This document shows positions 35,661 through 38,617 of a stretch of 64,000 nt of DNA, piece by piece. The DNA lies in the NCBI RefSeq assembly GCF_014699135.1, contig NZ_JACOFT010000005.1, positions 186,288 to 250,287 of the forward strand. The letters run 5' to 3'. This DNA comes from Cognatundibacterium aquatile (lineage in GTDB: Bacteria; Pseudomonadota; Gammaproteobacteria; Burkholderiales; Burkholderiaceae_D). The stretch's first letter is position 1, and each line of letters begins with the position of its first letter. Both the position numbers and the translations under genes were made by a program. The notes beneath the pieces are model-generated. The model did not search any database. It saw only the letters and a list, made by a program, of their open reading frames with translations, and had not been told where the DNA came from.

Positions 35661-35757
35661 TTAAATATACTGGGGGGAGTATATTTAAATGCCCAATGTT
35701 TTCAAGGAGATCAGGTGCAAAATCACAGATACTCCCCCTTTTTATCGATTTTCAGGG
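35661..35757. repeat. Intergenic repeat element, copy B
   Basis: Related to copy A at 18308-18405. It opens with TATACT, six G, AGTATA, then GCCCAATG and TTCAAGGA as in copy A. Here the right end reads ATACTCCCCC followed by TTTTT, so the left GGGGGAGTAT (35673-35682) and right ATACTCCCCC (35729-35738) can pair across a 46-base loop and might end transcription of the SCO gene. In copy A the right block is reversed and such pairing is lost. Confidence 0.6.
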
Positions 35758-35767
35758 AATAAACAAT

Positions 35768-35798
35768 AAAAAAAGGCACTCCGCAGAGTGCCTTTTTT
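35768..35798. terminator. Bidirectional terminator between SCO gene and rpoH
   Basis: Stem AGGCACTC / GAGTGCCT with a 4-base loop (CGCA), flanked by A and T runs of six or more. It serves the convergent oxidase operon and rpoH. Confidence 0.93.
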
Positions 35799-35812
35799 CA
35801 TGTGCGGTGTGA

Positions 35813-36703
<891 letters not shown>

Positions 36704-36774
36704 TGTGTTGTTCCTCTCAATTACTGCAGTCCGAGCAAAAAAATAACTCTGAACAAACGTACTATTTCCTAATA

Positions 36775-36801
36775 TTAGCACTCTCTTGAGAAGAGTGCTA
36801 A
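36775..36801 (-). promoter_or_regulatory. CIRCE element (HrcA operator) of rpoH
   Basis: Exact match to the CIRCE consensus: TTAGCACTC, nine bases, GAGTGCTAA. It lies in the leader or promoter region of rpoH, 72 bases before the ATG. CIRCE is bound by the repressor HrcA and normally controls groESL or dnaK-type operons, so rpoH here should be derepressed on heat shock through HrcA. Confidence 0.93.
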
Positions 36802-36992
36802 TTCTCGTGAAAATGATGATTTCATCAAGATGAGGTCAGAGGTAAAAGCGGGTATTCCAGACTCTCGCCGAGTATTGTTGCCAGTGGTCGCCACTGGTAA
36901 CTCTGCAGAAATTTCTGGAATCGGCTTTCTTACTCTGCTTTAAACAGGCGGTTAGAGCAGCGATTTTTGGGAAAGTTGCAAATCATTATGTA

Positions 36993-37907
36993 TCAGTTTG
37001 TTCGCGCCAGTTGACGGCGGACGGACAGATAAGCCCCAGCCAGACCCAGTAACATGCTGACACCCAGCAACATCAGGCTGGGTAATATGCCCAGCGGTAC
37101 CAGCCGGAATTCGGAGGCATAAAGTTTGGCAAATTCCGCAATGGCCTGATTCAGTGGCTGCAGAGAGGCAGCAATGGCGGCCAGTGCCAGGCTTCCTGCC
37201 AGCAAACCCAGCAGCGCGCCGGTGTAATAGTAGGGGCGATGAATAAAGCTGTTGGTCGCACCTAACAAACGGGTAACGGAAATTTCAGCCTGATGCGAAA
37301 TCACTTGCAGACGGGTCGCATTAAACACGACCACAATCACGACTACGCCCAGTGTCGTTGCCAGAAACAGCAAACCTATCTGCAATATCTGCACAAGTGC
37401 CGCCAGCCGTTTAACCCATGCTGAGTCAACCTGAACCACCTCAACATCGGGCAAGGCCTGCAGTTGTTCGACCAGTTTATCGAGTTTTGCTGCATCATTA
37501 TTCGACAGCGAAAGCACGTAAGCATCCGGCAGGGGATTGCCGCCCAGTGTTGATAGCACTTCTGCGAGGCTGGACGCATCCTGCATCGCCGCCAGTGCTT
37601 TTTCTTTTGGTGTAAAGCTCAGTTTGCCGCTGATGTTGCTGTCTTTCAGCAGACGCTTGATTGGTACTGACAAAGCGGTCGCATTTTCACGCGCGGTGTC
37701 GGTCGTCATAAATATACTGATTTCCGGTTCTATCGATAACTGTGAAGAGATAGGACGGATATTTTCAATCAGCGTGAGTCCGGCAATCGGCAGCGCCAGC
37801 GCGATGGCGACCACCAGCACATTGAAGATAAAATTTCCGGTACCGGCGCGCAAGTGGGTGAATGCGCTTTTCAGTGCAAACAGATGTTCACGAAACCAGA
37901 TGGTCAT
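36993..37907 (-). CDS. ftsX: Cell division protein FtsX
   Basis: A 304-residue, four-helix inner membrane protein, partner of FtsE. It regulates septal peptidoglycan hydrolases and divisome assembly. After the start MTIWFREHLFALKSAFTHLR come one helix, a periplasmic domain (LSIEPEISIFMTTDTAREN to VEVVQVDSAWVKRL) and three more helices with VISHQAEISVTRLLGATNSF, the usual FtsX coupling motif. Start 37907 has AAGGAA upstream; the frame reaches 37967. It lies 35 bases after ftsE. Confidence 0.93.
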   Translation of the reverse strand: MTIWFREHLFALKSAFTHLRAGTGNFIFNVLVVAIALALPIAGLTLIENIRPISSQLSIEPEISIFMTTDTARENATALSVPIKRLLKDSNISGKLSFTPKEKALAAMQDASSLAEVLSTLGGNPLPDAYVLSLSNNDAAKLDKLVEQLQALPDVEVVQVDSAWVKRLAALVQILQIGLLFLATTLGVVVIVVVFNATRLQVISHQAEISVTRLLGATNSFIHRPYYYTGALLGLLAGSLALAAIAASLQPLNQAIAEFAKLYASEFRLVPLGILPSLMLLGVSMLLGLAGAYLSVRRQLARTN

Positions 37908-37942: not shown

Positions 37943-38617
37943 TCAGGCGGCAGCGCCTGTTGTCCATGAATCCGAGATTTGTCCATTGCTCAGATAGATC
38001 ACGCGGTCGGCCTGATCCAGGAATTGCTCATCGTGACTGGATATGATGCAAGTGACGCCGGCGCTCTGGAATGCTTTTAACGCGCTCAGCACTTTATTCG
38101 CATTGTCTCTGTCCAGAAACGCGGTAGGTTCGTCAGCCAGAATAATTTTGGGGCGATTCACGATCGCACGCGCAATGGCAACACGCTGCTGTTCGCCACC
38201 GGAAAGCTCCAGCGGCAAGGCATTGGCTTTATCCAGCAATCCGACTTTTTCCAGTGCGACGCAGGCACGTGATTCTGCTTCATTCGAAGTAGCGCCGGTC
38301 ACAATCAGCGGCAGCATGACGTTGTCGAGAACGCTGCGGTCGGTCAGTAATTTCTGATCCTGCAAAATTAATCCGAGCTTGCGGCGCAAATACGGCAGGC
38401 TACCGGTTTTGAGTTTGCTGACATCCTGACCATTGACGATGACATGGCCGCTGGTCGGCTTTTCTATGCCTGCGATCATTTTTAATAAAGTCGATTTTCC
38501 GGCACCAGAGGGGCCCGCCAGAAAAATGAGTTCTCCATCCTGGATGGTCAGAGAGATATCGCGCAAAGCGTAGGCATCACGCGAATATTGTTTAGTGACG
38601 TTATCGAATTCGATCAT
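37943..38617 (-). CDS. ftsE: Cell division ATP-binding protein FtsE
   Basis: A 224-residue ABC ATPase. Walker A is [18 protein letters not shown], the signature is [19 protein letters not shown], Walker B is [12 protein letters not shown] and the switch His is in [10 protein letters not shown]. It forms the FtsEX complex at the septum and does not transport a solute. Normal length. It lies 26 bases downstream of ftsY. Confidence 0.95.

Follow-up and report, generated by a model that had tools for sequence, protein, structure and literature searches.

Does the palindrome that lies upstream of rpoH in this genome place the gene for sigma-32 under the HrcA repressor, and how far does such an arrangement extend? 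The heat-shock response is commonly taught from E. coli, in which rpoH is driven from several promoters and further controlled through mRNA structure and protein turnover, and the level of sigma-32 is set largely after transcription. The window analysed here (the whole 64-kb stretch of DNA) contains the sequence TTAGCACTC-N9-GAGTGCTAA at 36775-36801, a perfect CIRCE (the HrcA operator) with 0 mismatches. An initial sequence-only reading had described exactly this match in front of rpoH, and both the site and the identity of the downstream gene were recovered, the gap between the palindrome and the ATG being 71 bases (36704-36774) rather than the 72 that had been claimed. No other site in the window comes within 3 mismatches of the operator, and a chance palindrome was rejected on the basis of an expectation of 0.01 per window in dinucleotide-shuffled sequence.

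The rpoH gene occupies 35813..36703 on the minus strand, with its ATG at 36703, and encodes a protein of 296 residues that matches the sigma-32 equivalog TIGR02392 (413.5 bits; cut-off 323.1). Its best match among named genomes is the RpoH of Undibacterium rivi (99%, the window's own genome possibly being excluded from the comparison), and it contains the stretch QRKLFFNLR, which we take to resemble the RpoH box, a region linked to control by chaperones and proteases. A Shine-Dalgarno-like GAGAGG, judged by eye, is present at 36713..36718 on the same strand. Upstream and in the same direction are ftsX (36993..37907, minus strand) and then ftsE (37943..38617, minus strand), named from best matches that fall below their cut-offs (TIGR00439, 238.3 bits against 255, and TIGR02673, 256.5 bits against 264.85, respectively), and the resulting order ftsE-ftsX-rpoH is the same as that of E. 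coli K-12. An intrinsic terminator was considered and rejected: a scan of 36650-37050 returned one candidate, on the plus strand at 36935-36960, which is near chance (0.3 expected). A promoter scan of the same interval gave one promoter-like match, again on the plus strand (36786-36814) and near chance (0.5 expected). Known RNA families were rejected for the region, nothing in 35700-37100 reaching an Rfam cut-off, as was any marked RNA structure in the rpoH leader: when folded as a single sequence, the leader and early coding RNA gave a z-score of +1.30, with 186 of 200 shuffles folding at least as well.

Extending the search to the whole genome (3,897,549 bases in 17 contigs, up to 3 mismatches) returned just two CIRCE sites, one at rpoH and the other 260 bases before groES with the same arms. 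The absence of hrcA had been named in advance as grounds for abandoning HrcA control of rpoH. The gene is in fact present in one copy at C11:144152-145150, matching TIGR00331 with 317.6 bits against a cut-off of 197.2, and the idea survives on that count; the site precedes a heat-shock gene in a genome that also carries hrcA, as an HrcA operator should. The complementary sigma-32 signals were sought with the pattern CTTGAAA-N11-16-CCCCAT, scored out of 13 and compared with 200 shuffles. Good matches precede groES (12/13), grpE (12/13) and dnaK (11/13), for which 0, 0 and 1 of the 200 shuffles, respectively, were as good. In the 300 bases before rpoH the best score is 9/13, equalled by 157 of 200 shuffles, and autoregulation of rpoH by sigma-32 was rejected on these figures; the match before hrcA (10/13, with 28 of 200 shuffles as good) is not convincing. 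At groESL, the CIRCE (L001 1379-1405) is accompanied by a separate, gene-proximal sigma-32-like promoter, CTTGAAA-N14-CACCAT. Within 3 mismatches there is no CIRCE at hrcA (C11:144152) or at grpE-dnaK-dnaJ (C1:887986) in this genome, whereas class relatives such as G337, G358 and G254 have a third CIRCE beside hrcA. The rpoH gene is thus associated with a CIRCE and no convincing sigma-32-like promoter, grpE and dnaK show the reverse, and groESL has both. This distribution of motifs suggests a circuit in which HrcA would govern rpoH and groESL, while sigma-32 would govern grpE, dnaK and groESL. The earlier statement that the palindrome joins two heat-shock systems is apt for this genome, given the way in which the two kinds of element are divided among the genes.

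Related genomes had been suggested as a place to look for CIRCE at rpoH, and the site is found there without exception: it lies within 600 bases upstream of the gene, 57-185 bases from the matched start, in all 80 nearest named RpoH loci (the best 80 of 320 relatives found in named genomes), with 0 mismatches in 52, 1 in 27 and 2 in 1. These loci are titled mostly Undibacterium, Collimonas, Herbaspirillum, Duganella, Massilia, Janthinobacterium and other Oxalobacteraceae, some by a higher taxon only. In the 23 of the 80 that were inspected the arms are constant and the 9-base loop is variable.

We then compared the presence of the site with that of hrcA across the order, in a survey of 200 genomes with a CIRCE threshold of 2 mismatches. 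Genes for HrcA were found in 177 genomes, CIRCE in 176 and rpoH in 197; hrcA and CIRCE occur together in 175 and are both missing from 22. The exceptions are two genomes with hrcA and no CIRCE (G029 and G182) and a single genome, G184, with CIRCE and no hrcA, in which the site is not at rpoH (8 mismatches there). The regions upstream of 120 of the 198 listed rpoH genes were examined, comprising 98 from hrcA-bearing genomes and all 22 from hrcA-less genomes; three hrcA-less genomes of the order were identified by elimination. A site is present at 98/98 of the former (97 genomes from 43 families; 0, 1, 2, 3 and 4 mismatches in 32, 40, 21, 3 and 2 genes) and at 0/22 of the latter (5, 6, 7 and 8 mismatches in 1, 5, 6 and 10). 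The two sites with 4 mismatches, in G025 and G133, are degenerate and come close to the best hrcA-less genome with its 5. In one genome, G046, there are two rpoH genes, preceded by CIRCE with 1 and 2 mismatches. Fisher values for the association are tiny, although they were computed ignoring relatedness, and for that reason the contrasts within families constitute better evidence. The same difference between hrcA-bearing and hrcA-less genomes is repeated inside families f4, f23, f30, f33 and f50, and in f50 even within one genus, g99 (G160 versus G190). We interpret these contrasts as five or more independent losses in the order, besides families f18, f39, f40 and f43, of which no sampled genome has hrcA. 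HrcA control of rpoH, as first proposed from the letters of the window, therefore finds strong comparative support, with the site present in 80/80 near relatives and tracking hrcA throughout the part of the order that was examined.

Aligning the order sites also revealed conservation that extends beyond the operator. Numbered in the direction of rpoH, positions 28-30 lie just past the 27-base palindrome and are conserved too: among the 98 order genes T30 occurs in 97 (99%), A29 in 85% and A28 or T28 in 86%, and in the 80 nearest named loci both A29 and T30 are invariant. Together with T25-A26-A27 of the downstream arm, these bases form the hexamer TAATAT (36772..36777, minus strand; the last three bases of the arm and three beyond it), a candidate -10 element for a sigma-70 promoter of rpoH. 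It is preceded by TG at positions 22-23 (36779..36780, minus strand), inside the downstream arm and invariant in 98/98, a pattern typical of extended -10 promoters. A -35-like element, at a spacing of 18 bases, would be supplied by the hexamer that opens the upstream arm, TTAGCA (36796..36801, minus strand). The 99 mismatches over the 98 order sites are distributed unevenly, 77 being in the upstream arm and 22 in the downstream one. The most frequent, A3 to G in 41/98, converts TTAGCA to TTGGCA, towards TTGACA. The proposed promoter is missed by a plain sigma-70 consensus scan, scoring 8/12 by our own count against a threshold of 9, and the case for the overlap rests on conservation for this reason. 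It nevertheless seems, from the aligned bases, that the palindrome holds the sigma-70 promoter of rpoH. The groESL CIRCE of this genome lacks the T30 extension.

The 22 rpoH upstream regions from hrcA-less genomes of the order were scored, alongside block shuffles, with a profile restricted to the promoter positions. A clear relic at the old place was detected in two genomes, G033 and G180, with 0/100 shuffles reaching the score. In G180 and G033 the old place reads TTGGCA or ATAGCA, and TGGTAGAAT or TGATAAAAT; 4 of the 5 and 4 of the 6 mismatches in the G033 and G180 relics, respectively, fall on the 7 operator-only positions, numbered 7-9, 19-21 and 24, so that 4 of the 7 are changed in each. 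G160 has an extended -10 at the customary distance, but 23/100 shuffles are as good, and the remaining hrcA-less upstreams are weak or negative (G039, 2/100; G154, 3/100; and the other 17). Since clear relics are confined to G033 and G180, persistence of the promoter is established for two genomes and not as a general outcome.

Beyond the order the association holds less tightly. In a survey of the class (184 genomes), hrcA was found in 134 and CIRCE in 135, with 132 + 47 genomes concordant for the two and 2 + 3 discordant. By coordinates, CIRCE lies at rpoH in 25/28 class genomes outside the order among those listed for both, a count that excludes three genomes without a listed rpoH place as well as the window's genome and G048. 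From the 149 rpoH places listed (147 genomes), 80 upstream regions were fetched, namely all 33 listed as hrcA-less, 5 hand-picked from among the 28 genomes just mentioned and 42 spread over the remainder. With up to 3 mismatches, a site is found at rpoH in 39/47 hrcA-bearing cases, and 33 of these 39 sites also have T30; 4 of the 8/47 that lack a site had been chosen because their coordinates showed none. In the hrcA-less group (30 class genomes having been assigned to that status by elimination), 4/33 rpoH genes keep a site and the other 29 have at least 6 mismatches. The rule linking site to hrcA is thus strict in the order, as examined, and loose in the class (98/98 versus 0/22, compared with 39/47 versus 4/33). 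Gaps in draft assemblies may explain some of the class exceptions. The four hrcA-less genomes that keep the site are G316, G309, G264 and G379, with 0, 1, 3 and 3 mismatches; these cases may reflect recent loss of hrcA, an assembly gap or recognition of the site by something other than HrcA.

At the level of the phylum, a draw of 80 genomes contained CIRCE in 43. The site lies at rpoH in 3/3 class genomes, in 8/10 of a distant family, f207 (sampled n=19), and in 0/28 others, counts which again leave out the window's genome and G048. Two members of f207 display tandem CIRCE pairs with starts 62 bases apart (G426:C138:35390/35452 and G446:C28:43019/43081). The supposition that the arrangement is a trait of the betaproteobacterial lineage was correct insofar as it is widespread in the order and too narrow in that 25/28 class genomes outside the order and 8/10 of f207 share it. 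CIRCE at rpoH has the look of an old and well-preserved trait, not of a peculiarity of one genome, and it usually disappears along with HrcA. The class in question is Gammaproteobacteria in the GTDB sense, which we take to include the betaproteobacteria. We lean slightly towards the view that a promoter within a CIRCE was the ancestral form of rpoH control in this class, with HrcA/GroE sensing placed above sigma-32, and that the mode seen in E. coli is derived. Under such a history, loss of hrcA would leave the operator half of the element to decay, while the promoter half could persist.

Taking the locus and the comparisons together, we consider it highly probable that the palindrome is a genuine HrcA operator overlapping the sigma-70 promoter of rpoH, and that HrcA represses the gene by excluding RNA polymerase until it is relieved by heat. 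We infer the binding, the repression, the transcription start and the heat response from the DNA. Because the proposed -35 and extended -10 elements lie inside the palindrome, occupation by HrcA would shut out RNA polymerase and vice versa, and rpoH would be kept low at normal temperature. On heat shock HrcA would lose activity, since GroEL would be titrated by unfolded protein and/or HrcA would itself be heat-labile, and both groESL and rpoH would be derepressed. The new sigma-32 would then transcribe grpE and dnaK, and also groESL from its second promoter, and the recovered GroEL would re-activate HrcA and so close the loop. The HrcA of Campylobacter jejuni has both properties, its binding being stimulated by GroE and the protein being directly heat-labile (in the available part of PMC8533110), and the activity of Caulobacter crescentus HrcA is GroESL-dependent (as excerpted from PMC8119881); by analogy, GroE stimulation and heat-lability may also apply in this genome. 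Levels of RpoH and GroEL increased in parallel from 30 to 36 C in one insect symbiont (PMC12617022).

A possible, if rather unlikely, alternative is that HrcA binds the site and matters little there, rpoH being set mainly by translation and protein stability with the operator merely trimming basal transcription. In favour of this, the RpoH protein retains the QRKLFFNLR stretch that resembles the RpoH box. Moreover, a CIRCE need not act: one CIRCE-bearing groESL operon of Rhizobium leguminosarum was unaffected by an hrcA knockout (available portion of PMC3989490). In nitrogen-starved Xylella fastidiosa, hrcA rose about four-fold and rpoH two-fold at 8 and 12 h (available portion of PMC3224663), a joint rise that does not look like simple repression, if the Xylella rpoH has a CIRCE. 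Against a negligible role, the site is conserved almost perfectly in the 80 nearest loci and across 43 families and has been lost repeatedly together with hrcA, and we conclude on these two grounds that it has fitness value. The poor folding of the leader and the lack of an Rfam match also speak weakly, from a single folded sequence, against an RNA thermometer as the site of control.

Alternatively, the palindrome might work chiefly at the RNA level, as a hairpin that influences the stability or translation of a longer mRNA from an upstream promoter or from ftsEX; read-through could transcribe it, because ftsX lies upstream in the same direction. This is very improbable. Selection acts on the exact bases of the arms and not on their pairing, as the one-sided mismatches (77 upstream, 22 downstream) indicate, in the order the site disappears with hrcA, and the conserved -10-like bases place the expected transcription start downstream of the palindrome. 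That the element is the operator of some other repressor, or a product of chance, we regard as scarcely credible. The four class genomes that keep a site without hrcA would be accommodated by another repressor, and HrcA binding is predicted here from sequence; against this, the small expectation in the window, the dependence on hrcA in the order and the identical arms at groESL all point to HrcA itself.

If repression of rpoH by HrcA works as proposed, a large part of the class would have a transcriptional repressor, HrcA with GroE as its sensor, above sigma-32, and the enteric mode would have arisen later as a simplification. The function of HrcA control of sigma-32 could be tested directly in lineages that have lost hrcA naturally, in one case within a genus, and through the relics in which promoter bases survive without the operator bases.

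Compared with known systems, E. coli K-12 (NC_000913) shares with the window the encoded sigma factor and the ftsE-ftsX-rpoH order. Used as a control, it gave no hrcA match; a 7-kb stretch spanning its rpoH holds no CIRCE within 3 mismatches, and the best candidate in the 600 bases upstream has 7. Permina and Gelfand reportedly described the HrcA/CIRCE and sigma-32 regulons of beta-, gamma- and epsilon-proteobacteria in 2003, and may list CIRCE at rpoH; Ueki and Lovley are said to have studied RpoH in Geobacter sulfurreducens in 2007, work that may bear on HrcA. We take the latter organism to belong, by present taxonomy, to another phylum. An experimental test of HrcA at rpoH is not reported in the available parts of PMC545781, PMC12617022, PMC3135505, PMC1978210, PMC11764788, PMC3224663, PMC8119881, PMC8533110 or PMC3989490. 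Caulobacter crescentus employs the same repressor, operator and GroESL dependence as are proposed here, but its target is groESL, with rpoH not mentioned as a target in the available text of PMC8119881, whereas the targets predicted for the window's genome include rpoH. The closest parallel is Geobacter sulfurreducens, for which a perfect CIRCE before rpoH was predicted in 2004 at a listed position of -51; the predicted regulon also includes groESL, as in the window's genome (PMC545781, in part). The two differ in that hrcA-grpE-dnaK-dnaJ has a CIRCE in Geobacter, while hrcA, grpE and dnaK have none here, and in that the promoter overlap proposed for the window's genome is not described for Geobacter in the same portion of PMC545781. 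In view of that 2004 prediction the arrangement is of a known kind, and what the present analysis adds to it is its breadth, its co-loss with hrcA and the proposed overlap between operator and promoter.
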